In this document: in pieces, positions 10,275 through 38,235 of the stretch
How positions within the stretch are numbered: position 1 is the stretch's first letter
Layout of the letters: each line of letters begins with the position of its first letter
Position numbers and translations under genes: made by a program
The notes under the pieces: model-generated
What the model was told of the DNA's origin: nothing
The model's input: the letters and a program-made list of their open reading frames with translations, nothing else
The model's database searches: none
Assembly (NCBI RefSeq): GCF_002464935.1
Contig: NZ_NBYY01000013.1
Span: 62,001-126,000 of the forward strand
From: Candidatus Enterovibrio escicola
Lineage (GTDB): Bacteria; Pseudomonadota; Gammaproteobacteria; Enterobacterales; Vibrionaceae
Direction: 5' to 3'
DNA length: 64,000 bases

Positions 10275-11315
10275 GGTGTGTTTTCCCAAATATCTGAACT
10301 AATCACAATTCCTAGGATCAGATCGTCATGGAGTTAAGCGGGAAGTTATGATGGGAAAAGCCAAGCACAATATCAGCAACTGGAAACAATATAATCAAGC
10401 ATTAGTAAACCGTGAATCAGTGACTTTTTGGATAGACGTCTCTACTATTAAGGCTTGGCATTATCTAAAGCATCAAGGTCATCGTGGATGTAGGTTTATA
10501 TTTTCGGATACCGAAATTTAAACGGCACTGGTGGTGAAAAATATTTTCAAACTCCAACTTCGTGGATTTGAAGGGTTTCTCAATTCGGTTTTTACGTTGA
10601 TGAATATCCCGCTTAAATTCCCTACATATACCTGTATTAGTAAGCATGCGAAGAACTTAAAAGTTAAGTACCGTTTGATGAATCAAGGAGCTGTTGCCCA
10701 CGTCGTTATTGATGCTACAGGCATTAAAATATATGACGAAGGTAAATGGAAAACGCGTAAACAAGGTAAGGAGAAGCGGCGTATTTGGCGGAAACTTCAT
10801 CTTACTGTTGATGTGTCTACTCATGAGGTTATTGCTGCAGAAGTTAGCCTATTTTCTGTGGGTGACAGTGAAGTTTTACCTATCATTTCTTAATTAATTA
10901 CGACGAAAGATACAACAAGTTAGTACTGATGGAGTATATGACAAATGAGCATGTCACCATGTACTGAAGAACAAAGGAATAACGCCCAGTATTCCACCTC
11001 GAAGCAACGCGGGATATTGGGAGGAAGGGTAGCCTATAAATGAAGCTATGAAGGCGTTGAAATGAGACAAACTGGAGAAGTGGAAAAGGATAGGAGTTAT
11101 CACAAAGGCTCATTAGCAGAGACAGAAATCTTTTGCTATGAACAGTTGTTCAGTCCTGAACTCATTCTTTGTAATTACAATGATTAAGTTGGTAAATCAC
11201 TGGCAAATGTGAAAGCGATGAATAAAGTTATAAAACTAGGTATGTCTGTTTGCCAACAGACAAATTAAGACTGTCAAAGAATTGGGATCAGTGCGTTATA
11301 GTCCTGATTTAATTA
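10275..11315 (+). mobile_element. IS5-family (IS903-like) element, inactivated
   Basis: The left end (TTTTCCCAAATATCTGAACT) is followed by the transposase start at 10351 (MGKAKHNISNWKQYNQALVN). A stop at about 10519 interrupts it. The middle part continues in frame from 10531 to 10893 with VVIDATGIKIYDEGKWKTR (DDE domain), then breaks again. The right end is cut at about 11313, where an inverted IS982 begins. Nothing here can make transposase. Confidence 0.8.
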
Positions 11316-12985
11316 ATCTGAGATCTGCAATAGCGCTTGCTTATCAAGCCGAGTTATCTTGAAGCTCGGCTTCTTTGGCTGAAATGAATACGCGATGAGT
11401 CCTGCCAGCAAGTTAGCCATAAAACTAATATAATTATGGTGCCGAGAATGTTTGATTTGGGATATGTCTTTTAGTTAGTCAAAACGGTTTCAATAATAAA
11501 TCGTTTCTGGAGTATCGGGCAGTTCTAGAGTTTCCCACTTTGGAGTTCATGTTTTTTCATACCCGTTATCAGTTTCACTCTCTTGTCTGCAAGTTCCCGA
11601 CCCAATGGATCAGATACATAACCTTTGTTTCCGTAGAAATCCACCAAAAGCTCGTTAGCCATTTCCGATACTGGTTTTCTATCATTGAGCTATGGTCAAA
11701 TCTGGTATACAGCTTCCAGAGCAGTATCCTGATGATTGATGTTTGTTTCACGAATGCCATTTCTGAATTTCTTTCCTTTGATGATATCCGAGAGTAATTT
11801 AAAGCCTCGCAGGCTACGCCTGTTAATCTCAGTATTTCGTCTCACCGTTGCAAACATTGATTCAATTGGGTTTGTTGTTCGGATATATGTTCAGTGCTCG
11901 GCTGGGAAATCGTAAAATGCCAGCATTTCTACTTTATCTTTGGTCAGGCACTCCGCAGCTTTTGGATATTTAGCACCCTATCGTGTTTCAAACTGACCTC
12001 TGACTCCTTGTACCCATCGACAACGGCTAGCATTTCCTTGTGGCAGGTATCATCGACACCTATGACAACAAGCAGGCAAAGATTGTCATCCATTCAAACT
12101 TTGCAGTAAATACCATCGGCCTAAATGTAGACATACCGCTATTTACTTAGGGCGCGCTGACGCCACTGGTTGCATTCTGCTTCCCATTGCTGCTTGAGTC
12201 GAGAAACATTGTTTGCTGACAACTTCTTGGCTTGCTTACCTAAGGGCGCTTCTAGGGTTGGCTGCATATCGCCCGTGGAGATCCCCCGCAAATAAAACCA
12301 AAGGATAAGCTCTTCTATGTTTTTGGCTCGCTTGAGATAAGGCGGAATCAGTGTGCTGTTAAACTTGATCCTGCTCCCTGTTTTATCTCAAATCTTTGAG
12401 ACTTTGACGGTAATGTCGCCGAACTCAGTTTGTAGGGGACGCTCAGGCAAATGGTCATTGTACACTACCCCATCGTTCCTTTTCCTCGCTTCTCAGTACC
12501 TTTAAAATCTGATATCTAAGTATGCAGAGGTGTGACAAACTTGTAACTTGGACGAATCAACGAAGGCAATCCCTATCGGCTTTGCTTGACGGTGAGTGAG
12601 GTAAGAGTAAAGCAGAGCTAAAATACCTTGCATGAGCTTGAGCATTCGCGTGTAGCTGACTAACTCAGGAAATTCGTTGGTGAGGTAGCGATAAACAAAG
12701 TGGATGTAATAGGTTTTGAAGTCTAGATACCAAGATTGATGGAAAGATATCACTATCGTCATCACTTTGCTAACTGAGAGATGAGAAGGCTTGCTTCTTT
12801 CTTTGACACCGGAAGAAATGAGGTACTTTTTCCATGTAGGGAGGAAAGTCTGGCAGAAATCTTCGACATCGATGGAAACAGCGTCTAAGTTATTTTTACC
12901 CAAGTCCTTATGCAGGTAATAGTTTTTTTAAACAATCAGATCGCAAATTGGGAATTTAGTTCATTTCTTATGCGCAGCTCAGATT
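11316..12985 (-). mobile_element. IS982-family element carrying IS256, inactivated
   Basis: Both IS982 ends are present in minus orientation: left terminus at 12985 and right terminus at 11316. The 5' half (12502-12903) is the same transposase piece as at 7028-7429. The 3' part (about 11316-11690) encodes the remainder, DRKPVS-like through the tail, with frameshifts. Between them lies IS256 (11691-12455), joined at the same base as in the copy at 7450. About 70 bases of IS982 around the insertion point are missing. This is an inverted partial repeat of 6947-8565. Confidence 0.8.
11691..12455 (-). mobile_element. IS256-family relic, shorter copy
   Basis: It has the same sequence as 7451-8565 in inverse orientation, but about 258 bases that include the GDGA aspartate block (equivalent of 7939-8195) are deleted. 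The C-terminal part is joined directly to the TCAGAGGTCAG stretch. Homologous flanks show that the two copies share one origin. Confidence 0.7.
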
Positions 12986-20139: not shown

Positions 20140-21191
20140 GGAGTTGTTGATTAAATCAGGCCTATAAAGCACTGCTTCTAATCTTTTTTACAGTCTTAAT
20201 TTATCCGATGGTGAACAGGAATACCGGATCTTATAACTTTATTCATCGCTTTCACATTTGCCAGCGCTTCACCAACTTGATCATTGTAATTACGAAGAGT
20301 GAGTTTAGGGCTGAGCAACTGTTTATAGCGAAACATTGCTGTCTCTGTTAATGAGAGTTTGTGATAACCCCTGTCCTTTTTCATTCCGCCAGTTTGTTCT
20401 CTTTCAACGCCTTTATAGCTTCCTTTTTTGGATGCCTTTCCTCCCAAAATCCTGTGTTGCTTAGAGGTGGAATACAGGGCGTTATTCCTTTGTTTTTCAG
20501 TACACGGTGACACGCTCTTGTGTCATAGGCTCGATTAGCACTAACTTGCTGTATCTTTCATCATCATAGGTTAAGTAATATAGGTAAAACCTCATTGTCA
20601 CTCATAAAAACTAAGCTAACTTCTGCAGCAATAACCTAATAAGTAGACACATCAACCGCGAGATGAAGTTTGCGCCAGATACGCCACTTATCCTTACCGT
20701 GTTTACGCGTTTTCCATTCACCTTGGTCGTATACTTTTAGGTCTGTGGTATCAATAACGACGTCGGTGACCGTTCCTCGATTCGGCAAACGTTACTTAAT
20801 TTTTACGGTCTTAGACCGATTACTAATGCAGGGTGTATGTCGGGTATTTCAGCGGGACATTCATCAACGTAAAAACAGAATTGAGAAAACCTTCTAATCC
20901 ACGAGGTTGGAGCCTAAAAAGACCTTTCATCATCAGTGCCGTTTTAATCTCGATATCCGAGAATATAAACTCACGGCCATGATTACCGTTATGCTTTAGA
21001 CAATGCTATGCCTTAATAGCAGAGAGTTTATCCAAAAAGTCACTGAGCCACGGTTTACTAATGCTTGATTATATTATTTACAGATTGCTAATTTTGTGCT
21101 GGGTCTTTCCCATTATAACCGCTCGCTTAATTCCATGATAATCTGATCGGAGGAATTGAGATTAGTTCAGATATATGGAAAACAACGCAGG
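20140..21191 (-). mobile_element. IS5-family (IS903-like) element, inactivated
   Basis: Full-length copy, 1052 bases, in minus orientation, with ends GGAGTTGTTGATTAAATCAG and, at 21191, TTCAGATATATGGAAAACAA. The transposase C-terminal part is readable from 20513 to 20196 (SLTETAMFRYKQLLSPKLTL). The N-terminal and DDE parts are broken by stops and shifts. Confidence 0.78.
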
Positions 21192-26267: not shown

Positions 26268-28979
26268 CTAATTTGCATCTTCCTGCTCTATATCTCTCTC
26301 ACAAACATGACTGATGATTTGTACTAGTTCTGCGATGCAGCTTCCACAACCCGTCCCTGCTGATGTGGCCACAACCACGTCCTCAACGTTTATTAAATTG
26401 TCTTTAATTATGGCTTGTTCGATGGTCTCTAACTTGACCTGTTTACATGTACAAATGATGGGAGATATTGCGACCAAGCATCCTGATAGGAACGTATGAA
26501 TATCTTGTTCTCTAAAACCTGAAGTGAGTAGCTGAACGATGTCTGGTTGTATCCTTTCCCTTTCTATGGAGCTAATTGAGAACGCCAGACATGGTGTTGT
26601 TTGACAGTATATTATGCCGCGCCACCCTGTGCTGCCATGTCCTTGAATTAACGATGAACCAGAGTGTTCTAGCATAAGAATTAGATGTGAATAGACATTT
26701 TTAGAGCTTTCTTTAAATAGAAAACGATAAAAATATCCACCTTTAATGGTTTGTTTTACCCAATAGTCTGCGCAGATAGTTTTTAGCTGTTTGTCATTTA
26801 AGCCTTTTGGTGTTATTAGGGTGGCAACAGAAGATATCATAAGTGGTTCTATAGCCACTGGTGTAGTTTTAAACGCAGGCTGACCAGATATGAGGTCTGT
26901 CTTTGTAGGAATGAGAGAATTAACTTTTCCGCTGGAGCAGTTTGTTTTACTCCAATGGATCGGAGCAAAACACTGTCCCACCATTACATCATTGCTGAGA
27001 TGTGCCTTGAATATTTGTTTACCAGTATTGCTTGTAATCATAACCAACTTATTGTTTTTTATTCCTCTGGTCGTCGCGTCAAAAGGGTTAATATCTACTA
27101 CGGGCTCGGCTGCATGTGCACTGAGAGATGCAGAAAGTCCCGTTTGTGTCATGGTATGCCATTGATCTCTATTTCGGCCTGAGTTTAATAACAATGTGAA
27201 TGGTGATGTAGTACAAGGGGTAGAAAATCTGTGATCAATTGCGACAAATCTTGCTTTCCCATCTGGTGTTGAGAAATGCCCATCGCTAAACAGTCTCTCT
27301 GATGAGATTTCATTGTTTATTAATGGCCATTGTTTAGGGGAAAACGCCTGATAATCTTTTGTCGTCATTGTTTGGATTGCAGCTAAGTTTAGCTTCCTTT
27401 CTGTACACTTATCTTTAGTATTGCCAGCTGCTGTCAATTTTGCGTATTCACTAAAAATGTCCGCTTCAGATTGGTAGTCAAAAGCCTCTTTAAATCCCAT
27501 TCGTTTCGCGACTTCGCAAACAATCCACCAATCTGGTTTTCCCTCCCCAGGTGTAGGCATTATGCGTCGTTGCCTAGAGATGGTTCTTTCCGAATTCGTG
27601 ACGGTACCTGATTTCTCACTCCAACCTTGTGCAGGGAGACGAACATGCGCGTGCTGCATTGTATCAGTACAGGAAACGCAATCGGAGACAATAAGAAATG
27701 GACAGTTTGCAAGGAGGGTGTTGATCTTTTTGCTGTCAGGAAGGCTTACGGCAGGGTTAGTCGCCATGATCCAAAGCGCTTTTATTTTTCCACTATCGAT
27801 GGCATCAAACATGTCAATTGCTTTCAAACCAGGTTTGGTAGCAAGCTTATTTGTCTGCCATACGTCCTTAAGTAGGGCTATGTGATCCTCATTGCCAAAT
27901 TCTAAATGTGCTGCGAGTGTGTTAGCTAGTCCACCAACTTCTCGGCCGCCCATCGCATTTGGCTGTCCTGTAATAGAGAACGGTGAACTCCCTACACGAC
28001 CAATGCGGCCTGTGGCTAGATGGCAGTTAATTATACTGTTCACCTTATCTGTACCACTTGTGGATTGATTCACTCCTTGAGAAAACAGTGTGACTGTTTT
28101 TGGATTTTCGCAAAACCATTGATAAAACATTTCTATATCGGATGATCTTAGCCCAGTTACCGATGATACGGATGAGATGGTAGAGAATCGTTGGGAATAT
28201 TTTAATGCAGTATCAAAGTTTGATGTGTGTTGCTCAACATAGGAATGATTAACGTGGTTGTGCTGAGAAAGGTATGCCAGTAATCCGGTAAATATTGCAA
28301 TGTCAGTACCTGGGAAAAGTGGAAGGTGCAGATCAGCAATTTCACAGGTGCTGGTTCGTCGCGGGTCGATAACCACCACTTTGGTACCGCCTTGTATTTT
28401 TGCTATTTTAAGGCGTTGATACAGAACGGGGTGGCACCATGCGAGGTTTGATCCTACTAAGACTACTAAATTAGCTAATTCCAAATCTTGATAGTTACCA
28501 GGAACACAATCTTCACCAAAGGCACGCTTGTGTCCGGCTACAGCTGATGCCATGCAAAGTCTCGAGTTTGTGTCGATATTTGCGCTACCTATGAACCCTT
28601 TCATTAGCTTATTGACAACATAGTAATCTTCGGTTAACAATTGACCAGATACGTAAAAAGCGACGGCATCTGGACCATGCTTATTGATGACATCATTAAG
28701 TGATGTTGCTACATTAGTAAGTGCATCATCCCATGAACACTCCTCATCTTGGATTGAAGGGGTTAAAAGTCGTCCTTTTCTTAGGATAGTCTCTGCCAAA
28801 GCCAATCCTTTGGAGCACAACCGCCCATAATTTGCAGGGTGTTCCTTGTCACCTCTGATGTCTAATTTACCTGAGGTAAGAACTTTAGCTTCGATACCAC
28901 AACCAACACCACAGTACGGACAGGTTGTCTTTATCCATCCTTTATTATCTTTTGATGTGTTACGTTTAGTATTAGGCAT
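26268..28979 (-). CDS. nasA: Assimilatory nitrate reductase catalytic subunit
   Basis: Reduces nitrate to nitrite in the cytoplasm for nitrogen assimilation. It is a molybdopterin (bis-MGD) enzyme with an N-terminal [4Fe-4S] site C20-X2-C23-X3-C27-X27-C55, as in the Nas/Nap family. The molybdopterin domains follow, with VIDPRRTSTCEIADLHL and the C-terminal dinucleotide-binding block around NSGRNRDQWHTMT. A C-terminal BFD-like [2Fe-2S] domain has C843, C845, C878 and C881. 903 residues, no break. It is transcribed away from the cobA-nirBD side, from a sigma-54 type promoter 40-60 bases upstream. The gene depends on molybdenum cofactor genes outside the window. Confidence 0.94.
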   Translation of the reverse strand: MPNTKRNTSKDNKGWIKTTCPYCGVGCGIEAKVLTSGKLDIRGDKEHPANYGRLCSKGLALAETILRKGRLLTPSIQDEECSWDDALTNVATSLNDVINKHGPDAVAFYVSGQLLTEDYYVVNKLMKGFIGSANIDTNSRLCMASAVAGHKRAFGEDCVPGNYQDLELANLVVLVGSNLAWCHPVLYQRLKIAKIQGGTKVVVIDPRRTSTCEIADLHLPLFPGTDIAIFTGLLAYLSQHNHVNHSYVEQHTSNFDTALKYSQRFSTISSVSSVTGLRSSDIEMFYQWFCENPKTVTLFSQGVNQSTSGTDKVNSIINCHLATGRIGRVGSSPFSITGQPNAMGGREVGGLANTLAAHLEFGNEDHIALLKDVWQTNKLATKPGLKAIDMFDAIDSGKIKALWIMATNPAVSLPDSKKINTLLANCPFLIVSDCVSCTDTMQHAHVRLPAQGWSEKSGTVTNSERTISRQRRIMPTPGEGKPDWWIVCEVAKRMGFKEAFDYQSEADIFSEYAKLTAAGNTKDKCTERKLNLAAIQTMTTKDYQAFSPKQWPLINNEISSERLFSDGHFSTPDGKARFVAIDHRFSTPCTTSPFTLLLNSGRNRDQWHTMTQTGLSASLSAHAAEPVVDINPFDATTRGIKNNKLVMITSNTGKQIFKAHLSNDVMVGQCFAPIHWSKTNCSSGKVNSLIPTKTDLISGQPAFKTTPVAIEPLMISSVATLITPKGLNDKQLKTICADYWVKQTIKGGYFYRFLFKESSKNVYSHLILMLEHSGSSLIQGHGSTGWRGIIYCQTTPCLAFSISSIERERIQPDIVQLLTSGFREQDIHTFLSGCLVAISPIICTCKQVKLETIEQAIIKDNLINVEDVVVATSAGTGCGSCIAELVQIISHVCERDIEQEDAN

Positions 28980-29020
28980 AGTGCTAAATTCCCATATCTT
29001 TCACTAGTTATGAACAATAG

Positions 29021-29040
29021 ACAGCAACTAGTGCGCCAAA
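29021..29040 (-). promoter_or_regulatory. Sigma-54 type promoter of nasA
   Basis: On the minus strand TTGGCGC-ACTAG-TTGCT places GG and GC exactly 10 bases apart (-24/-12), with one mismatch to TTGGCAC. The predicted start near 29012 leaves a leader of about 33 bases to the nasA ATG. A GTGCA half-site at 29082-29086 could belong to an NtrC enhancer, but I see no full palindrome. Confidence 0.6.
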
Positions 29041-29289
29041 TTTAAATTTTAATAAAGTGAAATTCTAAGTTGATGTCCTTAGTGCATTTTTCATTTAAAT
29101 GAATATACCCAATCAACTTGAAGATGGTTGATTTACAGCCATGTAATCAATAGATTATTCTTCGTGTAAAAAGGTTGATTTTCTCAGGGTGATTAGGTTC
29201 TGTTAATCTTTGATAAATTCTTTTAAACAGCATGGTGAAGTGTTGTAATCACTTCGACAGAAATAATCTAACTTACAATATCATTGCTA

Positions 29290-29575
29290 GAACTATTATA
29301 ACTGATAATCGATGGGAACTGTTACTCCAACTAATGAAGCGTACTGGTCGTGTTTATGATAAACCAGAATAAAAAATATCTTTTAGAAGGATTTGTCAAA
29401 GAGTTATCTTGGAAGGTTAACTATAATGGATCTTTATTGAGGGCTTATTGTTGGAACACATCAACACAATACTGTGGCGACGATTCCAAACCATGATCTT
29501 TATGAAAAAGATGTGGCGATTATTCACCAAAGACTTATTTTATCGTAGATAGTAGCAGATTGTCTATCTACTTCA
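29290..29575 (+). mobile_element. IS5-family (IS1031-like subgroup) N-terminal relic
   Basis: ITDNRWELLLQLMKRTGRVYDKPE, then FRRICQRV and WRLFTKDL, match the helix-turn-helix N-terminus of IS1031-type transposases (IxDxxWxxLxPLLP... RxRxxFEGIL). Several stops. C-terminal pieces of the same type occur at 46030-46480 and 56860-57050. Confidence 0.55.
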
Positions 29576-29703
29576 GGTTACAAGGAGGACAAAGGCACTA
29601 TATTGTATATACAATATTATATAGACCCGTATTGACTAAGTCAATACGATTGTTGTTGCTAAAAGTGATATAGATCGATCTCTATGTAAGTATCCTTATT
29701 TAG

Positions 29704-30754
29704 GGCGTTTTTTCCAAAATATCTGAACTAATCGCAATTCCTACGATCAGATCATAATGAAGTTAAGCGGGAGGTGATGATGGAAAAGGCCAAGCAAAAG
29801 ATCAGCAACTGGAAACAATATAATCAAGCATTAGTAAACCGTGTTTCAGTGACTTTTTGGATAGAGGTCGCTGCTATTAAGGCATTGCATTTTCTAAAGC
29901 ATCAAGGTCATCATGGCCGTGGGTTTATATTTTCGGATACCAAGATTAAAACAGCACTGATGGTGAAAGGTATTTTTCAGTTCCCACCTCGTGAATTAAA
30001 AGGCTTTCTTAATTCGTTTTTTACGTTGATGCATTTCCCGCTGGAATCACTTACATACACTTGTATTAGTAAGCGTTCGAAGATCGTAAAAGTTAAGTAC
30101 CGTTTGCCGAGTTGAGGAGCTGTCGCACACATCGTTATTGATGTCACAGGCTTAAAGGTATACATCGAAGGTGAATAAAAAACCATGTAAACACGGGAAG
30201 GAAAAGAGGTGTATCTGGTGCAAACTTCATCTTGCGGTTGATGTGTATACGCATGAGATTATCACTGCAGAAGTTAGCCTAATTTCTGTGGGTGACAATG
30301 AGGTTCTACCTACATTGATTAACTTATTACAACGAAAGATACAATAAGTCAATGCTGATAGAGCCTATGACACAAAAGCATGTCACCATGTACTGAAAAA
30401 TAAAAGAATAACGGCTAGTATTCTACCACGAAGAAACGTGGATCATTGGTAAGAAGTACATGCTAGAAATGAATCTGTACATGCATTAGAAGAAGATAAA
30501 TTGCTGGAGTAAGAAAAGGACAGGGGTTCTTACAAACTCTCATTAGCAGAGACAGCAATATTTCGCCATAAATAGTGGCTTAGCTCTAAACTCACTCTTC
30601 GTAATTAAAATACTCAAGTTGGTGAAGCGCTGGCAAATTTGACAGTGATGAACAAAGTTATAAGACTTGGTATGCCTGTTCACCAGAAGAAAAATGAAGA
30701 CTGTAAAAAAGATTGGAAGCAGGTCTTGATAGACCTGATTTAATCAATAACGCC
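29704..30754 (+). mobile_element. IS5-family (IS903-like) element, full length but inactivated
   Basis: 1051 bases with terminal inverted repeats (left GGCGTTTTTTCC, right complement GGCGTTATTGATT). The transposase begins near 29777 (MEKAKQKISNWKQYNQALVN) and is open to 30115, then stops after KVKYRLPS; the DDE part continues in shifted frames. It separates nasA from the cobA-nirBD side but ends 125 bases before the NtrC-like site, so the nirBD regulatory region is spared. Confidence 0.8.
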
Positions 30755-30878
30755 AGTTCTGATTATAAAACTGATCATTTATTGATTTTAAACCGTTCGT
30801 GATCTTGCCCTAATATTGAGATATAGGGAGCATTAAAACTCGGCGTTTGATCGAACGGGTGCAAGATAAAGGATGAAT

Positions 30879-30895
30879 TGCACAGTTAAAGTGCA
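30879..30895. promoter_or_regulatory. NtrC-like binding site upstream of cobA-nirBD
   Basis: TGCACAGTTAAAGTGCA has the TGCAC-N7-GTGCA structure of NtrC sites (as in glnA enhancers). It lies about 106 bases upstream of the -24 element and about 135-147 bases upstream of the predicted start. A weaker half-site GGTGCA at 30859-30864 may be a partner. NtrC itself is not in the window. Confidence 0.65.
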
Positions 30896-30998
30896 GGTTA
30901 TTAACGCCGTAGTTATATTAGCGAAAATTTATTTTGATTGGGTACGCCAAATTTTTTACAAAAACAGCTTGTTATTTATACAATCAATTTTTTTCATA

Positions 30999-31015
30999 TT
31001 GGCACTATATTTGCT
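30999..31015 (+). promoter_or_regulatory. Sigma-54 promoter of cobA-nirB-nirD-narK
   Basis: TTGGCACTATATTTGCT contains the -24 TTGGCAC and -12 TTGCT elements; GG (31001) and GC (31013) are separated by 10 bases as required. The predicted start near 31026 leaves about 42 bases to the cobA start at 31068. With the NtrC-like site upstream this predicts induction under nitrogen limitation. Confidence 0.78.
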
Positions 31016-31067
31016 TTCTTAGATTCATATATACCAAAGTAACCTTGAATTAATGGGGTATAGGAAC

Positions 31068-31917
31068 ATGCATCCCAATAAAATATCGGTTGTAGGAAAT
31101 ATGCGTAGTATTCTTTTACACAACACAGATTTATCTTCGATTCTTTTTTCAGGAAAGCCTGATCTTCCTTTTATCAAACGAAATAAACAGCTAGGAACCA
31201 TCTTCCCTGTTGGAATAGGGCTGTACGATCTAAATTTTCTCATGGTAAAAGCGCTTTGTTGTATTAAAACTAACGACGTAATTATTTAGGATCCCCTTGT
31301 TAGGGATATATATAGTATGCGTTCGTACCTCCATAAAAAACTACTATCTATTGTGGATTAAAGCAAAAGGTCAGCATAAAGTTCATCGGGAAGATATTAA
31401 CCAATTACGCATCAATTCAGCACTAGTCGATAAAATAGTTTGTAGATGGAAAGGTGGTGATGCTTTTATCTTTGGGAGATGAAGTGTTTGGAATTACCAA
31501 TGAGTCTAGCTGTACCAGTTATGTAATCATCCAACTGACTAATAGAAGTATTTTATAGGTCATTCTTTGGTACCTAGTACAAAAAAAGAATTGTTGGTGA
31601 ATTGATGTGCATCAGTGGATTTAATTGGAGATTTGTATTTTACAGTGGTTTGTCTAAATTAGTTTTGATTTGTAACCAACCCCAATCGGCAGATATACCA
31701 CTTCCAATATCAATTACTGTTATTGACAAGGTTAGTCCTCCGGATAAAAGTGTTTGGCATAAGCAAGCTAGGGAAAATGTACGCAATAATTGAAGGGCAT
31801 ATGGTTACATCACTTTCGCGTATTGTCAGCGGTCATGTTGTATTTCTGTCGGTTGAATTGGACTGGTTTATTGAACATGCCTCTACCTCTACACACATCA
31901 AAAAATTCTTTGTATAA
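31068..31917 (+). pseudogene. cobA: Broken cobA (uroporphyrinogen-III C-methyltransferase, siroheme synthesis)
   Basis: Starts normally (ATG at 31068 with TAGGAAC before it) and reads NMRSILLHNTDLSSILFSGK, then IGLYDLNFLMVKALCCIKTN, the SAM-binding GxGPGDPELLTxKALxxIxxAD block. A TAG at 31287 stops it. In other frames KAKGQHKVHREDINQL and RWKGGDAFIFGR follow, then LYFTVVCLN/FYSGLSKLVLI, GKMYAIIEGHMVTS and LDWFIEHASTSTHIKK. These are CobA blocks in order, with the middle (after GR) largely deleted. At least one nonsense change and several frameshifts; inactive. Siroheme is the cofactor of the NirB next door. Confidence 0.8.
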
Positions 31918-31926
31918 GGAATCCTT

Positions 31927-34473
31927 ATGGATAAGAAACGGATTGTTATTATTGGAAATGGTATGGTGGGACATAGATTCATTGAAGATATTTGTGATAA
32001 AAAAAGAAATAGAGAGTTTGAAATTATCACTTTTTCAGAGGAACCACGCCTTGCATATAACCGAGTTAAGTTAAGCAGTTTTTTTAGTGGAAAGACTGCC
32101 GAAGATTTAATGCTGACAAGTGGAAATGATTATACTAGACAGGGTGTTAAGTATTACTTAAACGAAAAAGTTATTGAAATAAAACGAAATAATAAGTGTA
32201 TTGTGACTAACAAAGGGACGGAGGTATTTTATGACTTCTTAGTATTGGCAACGGGTTCTTATCCTTTTGTCCCGTCAATTGAGGGTAACGATCAAACGCA
32301 TTGCCACGTTTATCGTACCATCGAAGATCTTGAAGGTATTAGGTCCTCGGGTGAACAGAGTAACGTAGGAGTAGTTATCGGAGGTGGACTGCTTGGGTTA
32401 GAAGCGGCCAATGCACTGCAACATATGGGTTTAGACACCCATGTTGTTGAGTTTTCAGCACGTTTGATGGCCGTTCAACTTGACGACGGTGGCAGTGAAT
32501 TGCTTAAGCAAAAAGTCACAGCGTTGGGTGTTAAGATTTATACAGGAAAAACTACTAAAGCAATTGTTGTAGGTGACAATTGCCGCTACAAGCTTAAATT
32601 CGAAGATGGTACTGAGCTAGAAACTGATATGGTGGTTTTTTCTGCGGGTATTCGCCCACAAGATGCATTGGCTAAAGCGCATGATATTGAGGTAGGTGAA
32701 CACGGTGGCATAGTCATTAATGACGCATGCAAAACTAGCGACAATGCTATTTATGCGATTGGTGAATGTGCATTGTGGCGGGGGCGCGTCTATGGTCTTG
32801 TGGCGCCAGGCTACCAAATGGCCAAGGTAGTTGTGGCACAACTGTGCGGGGAAGATACAGTGTTCAAAGGTGCTGACATGAGCACTAAGCTGAAATTGTT
32901 GGGTGTGGATGTTGCGAGCATAGGTGATTCACAAAGTATCACACCAGGTGCACAGTCCTATACCTTCTCTGATGGTATTGAACAGGTGTACAAACGCATT
33001 GTTGTATCTGAGGCCGGAGACAAGCTATTGGGTGCGGTACTGGTAGGTGATGTAGAAAGCTATCAGACTTTGTTGCTTACCATGCTCAATGAGTTGCCTT
33101 TGCCTGAATTCCCATCAGTTCTGTTGCTATCAAACAGTACAGTAGATACTGGACTTTTTGGAGTTGTAAATCTACACGATGATGCACAAATATGTTCTTG
33201 TTATGATGTATCCAAAGGCACGATTAGAAATTTAGTTGCTCAAGGCTGCACGTCTATGGCTAAGATTAAATGTGAAACAAAAGCAACCACAGGTTGTGGG
33301 GGCTGTAGTTCTCTAATAAAAAAAATAGTGGACGGTGAGTTGATTTCCTTGGGGCATAAGGTTAATAACAATCTCTGCGAACACTTTCAATATACGCGCC
33401 GAGAACTGGTGGATATTATTCGTGTTAAGAAAATTAAAACTTTCAGTTACCTGCTTGAGAACTACGGTTTAGGACTAGGCTGTGACATTTGTAAACCCAC
33501 GGTAGGCTCTATCCTCGCATCCTTCTGGAATGACTATGTGCTAGAAAACGAGCATATAGGGTTACAAGATACAAATGACATTTTCCTAGGTAATATGCAA
33601 AAGGACGGGACTTACTCTGTGGTACCAAGGGTTGCAGGGGGTGAAATTATGCCTGACAAGCTAATTGCTTTGGGTCAAGTGGCTAAACAATACAACCTTT
33701 ATACTAAAATTACAGGTGGTCAACGTATTGATCTCTTTGGTGCACAGTTACACCAACTCCCTGAGATTTGGAAAGTCCTAGTTGATGCGGGTTTTGAAAC
33801 TGGACATGCGTACGGAAAATCCTTGCGTACTGTTAAATCCTGTGTAGGTTCAACATGGTGTCGTTATGGTGTTGATGATAGTGTAGGGTTTGCTATTGAG
33901 GTAGAAGAACGTTACAAAGGGCTTAGATCACCGCATAAAATTAAATTTGCTGTATCTGGTTGCACCAGAGAGTGTGCAGAAGCCCAATCCAAAGATATCG
34001 GTATGATCGCGACGGAAAACGGTTGGAACCTTTATGTGTGTGGCAATGGTGGTATGCGTCCTCGTCATGGTGATTTATTTGCATCCGACTTAGATAGAGA
34101 AACACTGATCAAATATATAGACCGCGTACTGATGTTCTACATTCGCACAGCTGATCATTTACAACGGACTTCCGTATGGCTTGAAAGCCTAGAAGGAGGT
34201 CTTGATTACCTAAAACAAGTTGTTATAGAAGATAAGTTGGGTATAGCTGACGAACTTGAAAAAGAGCTTAGTGAAAGTTTGATTAACTATCAGTGTGAAT
34301 GGAAAACCACTATTGAATCACCAGAAAGACTTAAACGTTTCAGACACTTTATCAATAGTATGGAAAGCGATAACAGTTTAAAATATGTCACTGTGAGAGG
34401 TCAGAAAGTACCAAAACCTGTGTCCATCAAGTTAGAAAATATCAACCGAGACAAAGGCATTGACCAAAAATGA
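31927..34473 (+). CDS. nirB: NADH-dependent nitrite reductase large subunit
   Basis: Reduces nitrite to ammonium with NADH in the cytoplasm. An N-terminal FAD/NADH module (IVIIGNGMVGHRFIED, VVIGGGLLGLEAANAL) is followed by a BFD-type [2Fe-2S] domain with C423, C425, C457 and C460, and the sulfite/nitrite-reductase repeats. The siroheme/[4Fe-4S] cysteines are C639 and C645 in CVGSTWC and C679 and C683 in CTREC. 848 residues, full length. AGGAATCC precedes the ATG. It is the second position of the sigma-54-driven operon, 10 bases after the cobA relic. The need for siroheme with cobA broken means supply from another gene or a non-working enzyme. Confidence 0.94.
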   Translation: MDKKRIVIIGNGMVGHRFIEDICDKKRNREFEIITFSEEPRLAYNRVKLSSFFSGKTAEDLMLTSGNDYTRQGVKYYLNEKVIEIKRNNKCIVTNKGTEVFYDFLVLATGSYPFVPSIEGNDQTHCHVYRTIEDLEGIRSSGEQSNVGVVIGGGLLGLEAANALQHMGLDTHVVEFSARLMAVQLDDGGSELLKQKVTALGVKIYTGKTTKAIVVGDNCRYKLKFEDGTELETDMVVFSAGIRPQDALAKAHDIEVGEHGGIVINDACKTSDNAIYAIGECALWRGRVYGLVAPGYQMAKVVVAQLCGEDTVFKGADMSTKLKLLGVDVASIGDSQSITPGAQSYTFSDGIEQVYKRIVVSEAGDKLLGAVLVGDVESYQTLLLTMLNELPLPEFPSVLLLSNSTVDTGLFGVVNLHDDAQICSCYDVSKGTIRNLVAQGCTSMAKIKCETKATTGCGGCSSLIKKIVDGELISLGHKVNNNLCEHFQYTRRELVDIIRVKKIKTFSYLLENYGLGLGCDICKPTVGSILASFWNDYVLENEHIGLQDTNDIFLGNMQKDGTYSVVPRVAGGEIMPDKLIALGQVAKQYNLYTKITGGQRIDLFGAQLHQLPEIWKVLVDAGFETGHAYGKSLRTVKSCVGSTWCRYGVDDSVGFAIEVEERYKGLRSPHKIKFAVSGCTRECAEAQSKDIGMIATENGWNLYVCGNGGMRPRHGDLFASDLDRETLIKYIDRVLMFYIRTADHLQRTSVWLESLEGGLDYLKQVVIEDKLGIADELEKELSESLINYQCEWKTTIESPERLKRFRHFINSMESDNSLKYVTVRGQKVPKPVSIKLENINRDKGIDQK

Positions 34474-34511: not shown

Positions 34512-34847
34512 ATGATCCAATGGCAAACTATTTGCAGTAAGAGTGATTTGGTTAAAAACACTGGTATCTGTGCTTTGTTTAATGAAAAGCAGGTAGCAAT
34601 TTTTCTCTGCGGACATTCAGACAGACTTTTCGCTATCGATAATTATGATCCCATTGGTAAGGCACATGTTTTGTCGCGCGGAATTTTGGGATCTGTGGGG
34701 GATAAAACAGTGATTGCTTCGCCGCTCTACAAGCAACACTTTTGCTTGGAAAGTGGGGTATGCATTGAGGATGTGTCCATTACAGTTGGGACTTATCATG
34801 TGAGATGTTACGAAGGAAGCATTCAACTCGGATTGTCTAACGTGTAA
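34512..34847 (+). CDS. nirD: Nitrite reductase small subunit NirD
   Basis: A 111-residue Rieske-fold partner of NirB. The N-terminus MIQWQTICSKSDLVKNTGIC is typical. As in the NirD family, the Rieske cluster ligands (CxH...CxxH) are absent; it serves structurally rather than in electron transfer. AAGGATAAGGA lies just before the ATG. It starts 38 bases after nirB and is followed by the transporter gene. Confidence 0.9.
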   Translation: MIQWQTICSKSDLVKNTGICALFNEKQVAIFLCGHSDRLFAIDNYDPIGKAHVLSRGILGSVGDKTVIASPLYKQHFCLESGVCIEDVSITVGTYHVRCYEGSIQLGLSNV

Positions 34848-34932: not shown

Positions 34933-36408
34933 ATGGCGGGACATAAAGAATTTAAGTTATTTTCATTTTCAGGGAAAATGAAAATACTTCATTTAAGTTG
35001 GTTTGCCTTTTTTATTACATTTCTGATCTGGTTTAATTTTGCGCCATTGCTTCAACATGTTAAAGAATCATTAGGATTAACAACGGCAGAAATTAAAACC
35101 CTGTTGATTCTGAACGTCGCATTTACAATTCCTGCAAGAGTTGTTGTGGGTATGTTGACAGATAAATATGGTCCTCGCCTTGTTTATTCACTCTTATTGG
35201 CTATCTGCACCATTCCATGTTTTGTTTTTGCTTTTTCAGCTAACTTCGTTCAGGCTGCCATTGCTCGTTTTGCGTTAGGGATGATTGGTGCTGGTTTTGT
35301 TATCGGTATCCGACTTGTCTCTGAATGGTTCCCCCACAATGAGTTGGGTATTGCGGAAGGCATTTATGGTGGCTGGGGTAATTTTGGTTCTGCTGTCGCG
35401 GCATTCGCCCTTCCGACCGTTGCGGTCATGTTTGGTCGTGAAGACGGGTGGCGCTATGCCATGGCGATCACTGGTGTGATGAGTTTACTATTTTCTATTG
35501 TGTTTTATCGTAGTGTGACAGATACCCCAAAGGGTGCAACCTATTACAAGCCAAAAAATGCAGGGACGATGGAGGTCACATCCACAGGTGATTTTTATCT
35601 GCTATTAATAATGAAAGTACCAATATACGTATCCTTAGGATTACTGGCATGGAAACTATCACTATCCAGTGTGGGACTGTTTTCTTCGTTTACCGTTATG
35701 ACGATATATCTGGTATTGGGACTAATTTATATATTTGATACCTTCCATTTGTGGAAGGTCAATAAGCACATATTTGTTGAGGAAGTACCAGAGATCCACC
35801 GATATAAGTTTAAACAGGTGGCGGTATTAAACGTGTTGTATTTCGCCACGTTTGGATCGGAGTTGGCTGTGGTGTCTATGTTGCCACTGTTTTTCGCAGA
35901 CACGTTCGGACTTACGCCTGTTGTTGCTGGTATAGTGTCTTCGACGTATGCTTTCATGAACTTAATGTCTCGTCCTAGTGGAGGCTGTTTGTCTGATAAA
36001 TTCGGGAGAAAAGCTACCTTGCTGATCCTCACTGCGGGTCTCGCAGTTGGCTATTTCTTGATGGGATACGTAAACGGAAGTTGGCCAATATGGTTAGCGG
36101 TTATTGCAGCGATGGGGTGTTCTTTCTTCGTTCAATCAGGAGAAGGGGCTGTGTTTGCTGCTGTACCCTTGATAAAACGCCGTATGACTGGGCAAATAGC
36201 TGGGATGACGGGTGCATACGGTAATGTGGGCGCGGTCGTGTATCTTACTATTTTATCGGTGGTGGATTACAGTACCTTCTTCTTCATTATTGCTGCTACG
36301 GCTATGCTTGGATTTCTCACGCTAGTCTTTATGAAAGAACCATCAGGGCAAATAGCAGAAGTGAATGATGATGGGACCATCACCATGATTGATGTAGCTA
36401 AAGCATAA
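34933..36408 (+). CDS. narK: NarK/NasA-type nitrate/nitrite MFS transporter
   Basis: Inner-membrane transporter of the nitrate-nitrite porter family, 491 residues, with about 12-14 hydrophobic segments. The two nitrate signature stretches are IYGGWGNFGSAVAA (about 140-153) and GAYGNVGAVVYLT. The major-facilitator block GMLTDKYGPRLVY lies after helix 2, and a conserved arginine sits in GAGFVIGIRLVSEW. Long extra hydrophobic segments around residues 215-275 are typical of Vibrio/Pseudomonas assimilatory forms. AGGA lies 7 bases before the ATG. Context indicates assimilatory nitrate uptake. Confidence 0.9.
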   Translation: MAGHKEFKLFSFSGKMKILHLSWFAFFITFLIWFNFAPLLQHVKESLGLTTAEIKTLLILNVAFTIPARVVVGMLTDKYGPRLVYSLLLAICTIPCFVFAFSANFVQAAIARFALGMIGAGFVIGIRLVSEWFPHNELGIAEGIYGGWGNFGSAVAAFALPTVAVMFGREDGWRYAMAITGVMSLLFSIVFYRSVTDTPKGATYYKPKNAGTMEVTSTGDFYLLLIMKVPIYVSLGLLAWKLSLSSVGLFSSFTVMTIYLVLGLIYIFDTFHLWKVNKHIFVEEVPEIHRYKFKQVAVLNVLYFATFGSELAVVSMLPLFFADTFGLTPVVAGIVSSTYAFMNLMSRPSGGCLSDKFGRKATLLILTAGLAVGYFLMGYVNGSWPIWLAVIAAMGCSFFVQSGEGAVFAAVPLIKRRMTGQIAGMTGAYGNVGAVVYLTILSVVDYSTFFFIIAATAMLGFLTLVFMKEPSGQIAEVNDDGTITMIDVAKA

Positions 36409-36426: not shown

Positions 36427-38235
36427 ATGGTACAAAGACCTATACCAACTATGAAGTTAGAGCTAAAAACTGAGACGAATAATGAATATCCTCCCCAGCT
36501 TGTGGTTCGTACTGGGGGCTGCTCTGTGACGGGTCGAAAACCACTGAATCAGGATGCGTTTGCGGTAAAAATTCCAACTAATATTGCCGAACTCAAATAT
36601 AAAGGCGTTATTGCCACGATTGCAGACGGTATTAGTTCAAGTGATAGCAGCCAAAAAGCTAGCGAAACAAGCGTAACGGAATTTATTGACAATTATATGG
36701 ATACGCCCACCCTATGGTCAGTGAAGATGTCTGTAGGTAAGATACTAAAATCTTTGAATAACTGGTTATTCCATCACGTGCAGCAAGGGAATGCATCTTC
36801 TAATACCATGGTTGCTGCTTTTACTGGTGTGGTATTAAAATCCAATACATCTTATATTTTCCATGCAGGAGATTGTCGCGTATACCTTTATCGTGATCAG
36901 CAATTGACCAAATTGACACAAGATCATCGCCGCTATACCAGCAAATCACAACACCATCTAACCCGTGCTTTGGGTATAGATAGTCACTTAGAAATCGATT
37001 ATCAATCGATTCCCATTCAGCAAGGTGATCTCTTCCTACTTTCCACAGATGGCATACACGATACGCTCACTGAAAAACAAATGACGGTATCGATCTATCA
37101 TGCTCTTTCAACTTCGATATGTGATTCAGAAAGCAGTAATTTAGAAGTCACTGCGAAATATTTGGTTGATAGTGCGTTGGATGCAGGCAGTAACGACAAT
37201 GCAACCTGCTTATTTCTCTCCGTCGATGCGTTGCCACCCGCCTCTTTTGAGGAGTGTTTTAGGGATAGGTCGGAGCAAGTCACTCCTCCCGTGTTTACTA
37301 ATGGTCAACGAATCGATCACTACCACATTATCCGTGTGATACATAGTGGGAGTAGGAGTCATATATATTTAGCACAAAGTGAATTAGACGGCAAACGTTA
37401 CGTGCTTAAAATGCCCTCTCAGAATTTCTCTGACGATGTAGTTTATCTCTCAGGATTTATTCGTGAGGGTTGTGTTGGTGAACAGGTTCGCCAACGAGGT
37501 GTTATGAGAATATATCCACATTCAGTGCGTTCTCCGTTCCTTTACCACATTTGTGATTATGTTGATGGTGTGACATTTCGTCAATGGATGCTTGATCACC
37601 CTACACCTTCATTGTCAGAAGTCAGAGTGCTTGGAAAAGGTGCTATTAAAGCGATGAGAGTGTTACAAAGGATGGCAGTAGTACATAGAGATATTAAACC
37701 TGATAACTTCATGGTTGATGGGGATATGAATGTCACGCTGATTGATTATGGAACTGTTCAGTCAGAGGGTTTAAAGGAGATTTTTGGTCATGTTAAAGAA
37801 AATTATCCTGTAGGGGATCTTAACTACGCTGCGCCTGAATATCTCAGAAGTAATCAGGCGACTTTGGTTTCAGATGTGTTCTCATTGGGTGTTACGATCT
37901 ATGAATTATTGAGCAATCATTTACCATATAAGCCAGTAAACGCATCTAACTCGATAACGGATAACCCAAAGAACTACACTCCAGTTACCGTGTTTCGGAC
38001 TGATATTCCTGATTGGTTTGATGCGTCGCTGAAAAAAGCCTGTCATCCTATTTCTACAGTTCGTTATCAGGTGTTATCTGAATTTGAGAACGATTTAATG
38101 AATCAAAATCAAGAACTCACACAACCGAGAGACACTATTTCACTTATGGAAAAGAACCCACTCTGGTTCTGGAAGGGATTTTCCGCCATTTTGTTCGTGT
38201 TTGTATTACTCGAATTAGTGTTATTGGTTTGCTGA
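36427..38235 (+). CDS. Bifunctional PP2C-type phosphatase / Ser-Thr protein kinase, membrane anchored
   Basis: A 602-residue fusion. Residues about 25-260 form a PP2C-like phosphatase (metal-binding D67 in IADGISSS, GDCRVYLYR, STDGIHDTL, GSNDNATC). Residues about 295-565 form an Hanks-type kinase: K328 in RYVLKM, catalytic HRDIKPDN (D422, N427), and DYG (440-442) in place of DFG. The glycine loop (HSGSRSHIYLA) is poor. One transmembrane helix ends the protein (WFWKGFSAILFVFVLLELVL). It begins 18 bases after narK, so it is last in the nitrate operon, probably acting on nitrate uptake or reduction; this is inference from position. Similar fusions accompany nas genes in other gammaproteobacteria. 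Substrate unknown. Confidence 0.88.
   Translation: MVQRPIPTMKLELKTETNNEYPPQLVVRTGGCSVTGRKPLNQDAFAVKIPTNIAELKYKGVIATIADGISSSDSSQKASETSVTEFIDNYMDTPTLWSVKMSVGKILKSLNNWLFHHVQQGNASSNTMVAAFTGVVLKSNTSYIFHAGDCRVYLYRDQQLTKLTQDHRRYTSKSQHHLTRALGIDSHLEIDYQSIPIQQGDLFLLSTDGIHDTLTEKQMTVSIYHALSTSICDSESSNLEVTAKYLVDSALDAGSNDNATCLFLSVDALPPASFEECFRDRSEQVTPPVFTNGQRIDHYHIIRVIHSGSRSHIYLAQSELDGKRYVLKMPSQNFSDDVVYLSGFIREGCVGEQVRQRGVMRIYPHSVRSPFLYHICDYVDGVTFRQWMLDHPTPSLSEVRVLGKGAIKAMRVLQRMAVVHRDIKPDNFMVDGDMNVTLIDYGTVQSEGLKEIFGHVKENYPVGDLNYAAPEYLRSNQATLVSDVFSLGVTIYELLSNHLPYKPVNASNSITDNPKNYTPVTVFRTDIPDWFDASLKKACHPISTVRYQVLSEFENDLMNQNQELTQPRDTISLMEKNPLWFWKGFSAILFVFVLLELVLLVC

Follow-up and report, generated by a model that had tools for sequence, protein, structure and literature searches.

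The window analysed here, a stretch of 64,000 nucleotides from the genome of 'Ca. Enterovibrio escacola', carries an assimilatory nitrate and nitrite reduction cluster in which the siroheme-synthesis gene cobA is broken while the adjoining nirB, whose product depends on siroheme, is intact. Where does NirB obtain its cofactor, or is nitrite reduction already lost? CobA performs only the first step of siroheme synthesis, the methylation of uroporphyrinogen III to precorrin-2. CysG alone converts uroporphyrinogen III to siroheme by methylation, dehydrogenation and iron insertion, and cobA is therefore a second copy of the first step wherever both are present. Strain MJ02 of 'Ca. E. escacola' lives as a luminous symbiont in the light organ of the deep-sea anglerfish Melanocetus johnsonii (PMC6020299), and its genome comprises 2,645,619 bases in 39 contigs. 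The features of the window that bear on the question are the following:

26268..28979, minus strand: nasA, encoding the assimilatory nitrate reductase, a 903-aa molybdoenzyme with C-terminal Cys pairs; the gene is intact, runs divergently from cobA-nirB and gives the only PF00384 match of the genome
29703..30758, no strand assigned: insertion sequence (IS) relic in the nasA-cobA divergent promoter region, with copies of about 80% identity at 20140-21188 and 10275-11317
31068..31917, plus strand: cobA pseudogene (relic of a uroporphyrinogen-III C-methyltransferase), identified by frameshift-aware and nucleotide alignments; an intact cobA is syntenic in congeners
31927..34473, plus strand: nirB, large subunit of NADH-nitrite reductase, intact, 848 aa; NCBIfam TIGR02374 at 1073.7 bits (cut-off 578), 18/18 invariant Cys, 75-78% identity to congeners
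34512..34847, plus strand: nirD, small subunit, intact, 111 aa; TIGR02378 at 106.7 bits (cut-off 74.65)
34933..36408, plus strand: NarK-family nitrate/nitrite transporter, intact, 491 aa; TIGR00886 at 320.7 bits (cut-off 311.7), 83-86% identity to congeners
36427..38235, plus strand: fusion of a PP2C phosphatase and a Ser-Thr kinase, intact; it ends this cluster in congeners too

The stretch at 31068-31917 is a decayed cobA. Frameshift-aware alignment with the intact CobA of a congener (G005) spans window positions 31074-31905, where 114 of 299 columns are identical; its score of 327 compares with 26-34 for DNA that had been shuffled or reversed, which disposes of the doubt, raised in the sequence-only reading, that the relic might not be cobA by alignment. 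The premature stop, frameshifts and central deletion described there were likewise borne out: the relic contains a single TAG stop in frame at 31287-31289, frameshifts at five sites (near 31313, 31357, 31556, 31621 and 31756) and a central gap of about 15 codons, which in the nucleotide alignment is a 47-base deletion at 31486/31487. Nucleotide identity in that alignment is 53%, compared with 63-77% for genes that are intact in both genomes. Motifs are ruined as well: GAGPGDP has become GIGLYDL, VVYDRLVS has become VII*DPLV, and what followed FGR is gone. A genome scan found no open reading frame with SUMT motifs at the relic and no PF00590 match there. The relic matches part of the sequence of the CobA/SUMT (TIGR01469, NF004790) of the cobA-nirBD cluster in Enterovibrio and Grimontia (G005, G010 and G012) and agrees with it in its N-terminal extension, strand and position, but unlike these it is untranslatable, having a stop, frameshifts and a central deletion, and its catalytic motifs are lost.

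Errors of sequencing or assembly could produce frameshifts and a stop in a gene that is really intact, and the source is a metagenome-assembled draft of 39 contigs. However, among readable relic columns that are invariant in seven free-living congeners only 54.4% are kept, so that 46% of these residues have changed, and the relic lacks 47 bases in addition to having the frameshifts and the stop. The coverage was 58x (PMC6020299) and the genes flanking the relic are free of errors. The substitution load is too high for such an explanation, which we reject as extremely improbable.

The order of the cluster in congeners that have it intact is topA, nasA (reverse), cobA, nirB, nirD, narK and the kinase gene, and the window is identical except that the relic replaces cobA. 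In every congener having the cluster, an intact cobA lies between the divergent nasA and nirB, directly upstream of nirB. A plasmid search for nirB gave no match. In two congener assemblies (G001, locus L146, and G006, locus L147) the genes nirB, nasA and narK are broken up into two or three frames, and topA of G006 is split likewise; with 6% contamination in G001 and 87% completeness in G006, the cause may be misassembly and not gene loss.

The second possibility raised by the sequence-only reading was that nitrite reduction had been lost and that the large genes had not yet decayed. Nitrate and nitrite assimilation would then have ended recently, with nasA, nirB and nirD dead and CysG kept for CysI alone. 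This would suit a decaying genome for which 974 pseudogenes were reported (PMC6020299), whose sister 'Ca. E. luxaltus' is without the pathway and in which the promoter region of the operon is split by an IS relic. Against it, nasA, nirB, nirD and narK together show no disablement in 7059 bp, where about 51 would be expected at the density of the relic. Because of this difference, any loss of these genes can be no older than about 6% of the age of the cobA loss, assuming a uniform disablement rate. As had been observed from the letters alone, NirB keeps its cluster cysteines and NasA and NirD are full length: all 18 NirB cysteines that are invariant in congeners are present, including the siroheme/4Fe-4S set C639, C645, C679 and C683, and the counts are 14/14 for NasA and 5/5 for NirD. 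Columns invariant in the seven free-living congeners are retained at 86.5% in NirB, 90.6% in NasA, 89.6% in NirD and 89.7% in NarK, and at 85.3% and 86.3% in the comparison genes CysG and TopA; each of the six differs from the relic at p < 1e-6.

A further argument against recent death comes from the molybdenum cofactor (Moco). NasA is the sole PF00384 protein of the genome and a genome search for PF00174 (SUOX-type molybdoenzymes) found no protein, so that, within these two families, the genome seems to have no molybdoenzyme other than NasA. Still, moaA, moaB, moaC, moaD, moaE, mobA and moeA are all present and open. Since a pathway of seven genes is kept for the one client found, we argue that NasA is in use. 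With these lines of evidence taken together, a pathway already dead seems very unlikely. The loci of the molybdenum observation are window positions 26268-28979 and L149:1230-4093.

Estimates of dN/dS add nothing here. A two-ratio maximum likelihood codon model was fitted to eight taxa for nirB, nirD, nasA, narK, cysG, topA, pkn and the relic, and it returned an omega of 0.02 for the dead cobA with a dS of 22; several genes had dS above 5. GC3 fell on the symbiont branch from 0.50-0.58 to 0.34-0.41. The low omega of a dead gene results from saturated synonymous sites, the fallen GC3 and a non-stationary model. Because the relic itself reaches 0.02, dN/dS values on this branch are uninformative and we did not use them as evidence.

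The other possibility, that a gene of the cysG type makes siroheme, is supported by the rest of the genome. A search for cysG, another cobA and the second siroheme user cysI recovered a full-length cysG, and an intact cysI within cysJIH. The whole-genome scan for the tetrapyrrole methylase family gave two intact genes, one for CysG and one for RsmI, an rRNA methyltransferase of 292 aa identified by family resemblance and length. CysG has 473 aa and is encoded on a different contig from the nir cluster (G000:C25; L001:856-2277), followed in order by cysD, cysN, a SLC13-type transporter gene and cysC; cysG, cysD, cysN and cysC are intact. It matches NF007922 with 610 bits (cut-off 400), and both of its domains are present, the NAD-dependent dehydrogenase/ferrochelatase (TIGR01470 at 4-206) and the SUMT domain (TIGR01469 at 214-447). 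The protein aligns end to end, across 454 residues, with the trifunctional CysG of Salmonella (1PJQ) and retains the active-site residues that have been studied: D104, S128, P133 and the RRD triplet, which corresponds to R260/R261/D262 of the Salmonella enzyme (PMC7018833). The SUMT motifs YDxLVS, VGK, RLKGGDPF, LTHR and YMGL are kept too. The one departure among these key residues and motifs is D225A, by which GAGPGDP reads GAGPGAP at a position that is near-invariant in SUMT enzymes. The aspartate of this motif occurs in 40 of the 42 distinct methylases from the loci compared; the CysG of congener G002 has S at this position and is apparently the only siroheme source of G002. Together with other symbiont-specific changes in CysG, D225A could reduce its activity.

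Most likely, NirB still gets its siroheme. With a probability of roughly 0.88, we propose that the loss of cobA was the ordinary loss of a spare gene and that CysG supplies siroheme to the intact NirB. The relic would be the decayed copy of the nir operon, and its loss would be tolerable in that CysG performs the identical methylation; CysG, encoded among the sulfate-assimilation genes, would feed both CysI and NirB. As the symbiont genome shrank, drift together with IS activity may have removed the spare cobA, and meanwhile nitrate-to-ammonia and sulfate assimilation would have stayed under selection. What the sequence shows is the basis of this proposal: the relic, intact genes for CysG, CysJIH, NasA, NirB, NirD and NarK, a set of Moco genes, and residue conservation comparable to that of topA. 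From these we infer that CysG is active and nirB expressed. The contradiction between cobA and nirB would thus be settled, the dead cofactor gene having been a spare.

The distribution of cobA is consistent with such redundancy. Free-living congeners with the cluster have both CysG and a nir-linked CobA, and the congeners G002 and G007, which are without nirB and the second CobA, have kept CysG. Of the 80 nirB loci examined in other bacteria, 31 have cobA at most 500 bases upstream, and in 44 no cobA relative was detectable within a flank of up to about 6 kb, which implies that NirB often works without a linked cobA. This last count also speaks against a dosage effect, in which loss of the nir-linked copy would lower the siroheme supply and leave NirB only partly working. 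In support of such an effect, congeners have not given up their second, nirB-linked SUMT, which suggests a benefit at high demand for nitrite reductase, and CysG carries D225A; on balance we consider it unlikely. A related idea, quite unlikely in our judgement, is that 'Ca. E. escacola' stands between two states, with the nir-linked SUMT gone and the last SUMT, that of CysG, altered, so that siroheme may limit nitrite and sulfite reduction. If true, siroheme limitation would mark a step on the way to losing nitrate and sulfate assimilation entirely, as has happened in 'Ca. E. luxaltus'.

Expression of the operon is a separate matter from cofactor supply. The nasA-cobA intergenic region is 2.1 kb here and about 0.4 kb in congeners, and it contains the IS relic of about 1.05 kb, of which further fragments occur elsewhere besides the two copies in the window. 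The IS relic in the promoter region, with a dead cobA ahead of nirB, could impair nirB transcription. A search of 28900-32100 against Rfam gave neither a riboswitch nor a leader, and its only hit, a weak match to a snoRNA within the IS relic, looks like chance. Promoter-like sites were not enriched over shuffled sequence. Just left of the IS relic, positions 29597-29648 hold AT-rich palindromes and a 9-bp terminator-like hairpin, of which there is no second copy in the window.

Reductive decay of the genomes of 'Ca. E. escacola' and 'Ca. E. luxaltus' has already been described (Hendry et al., 2018; PMC6020299), including losses of metabolic genes and pseudogenes lying beside transposase relics, and the cobA relic too adjoins an IS relic. 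The main text of that study is silent on nitrate, nitrite, siroheme and sulfate, and on the contrast seen here, namely that, for the parts searched, 'Ca. E. escacola' keeps and 'Ca. E. luxaltus' lacks nitrate and sulfate assimilation together with the siroheme and Moco genes. The two are sisters on topA with full support. In 'Ca. E. luxaltus' CC26 (G004; L165) we found no nirB, nasA, cysG, cysI, cysH/cysD, moaA, moeA or true mobA, and the region after topA is that of acetate kinase. As this pattern shows, the genes of the pathway go as one block when they are not needed. 'Ca. E. escacola' has a complete route from nitrate to ammonia and from sulfate to sulfide with both cofactors, whereas its sister has lost all searched parts. 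This coherent retention in one symbiont and loss in the other is the part most worth passing on, and the contrast leads to testable predictions on nutrition in the lure or during a free-living phase.
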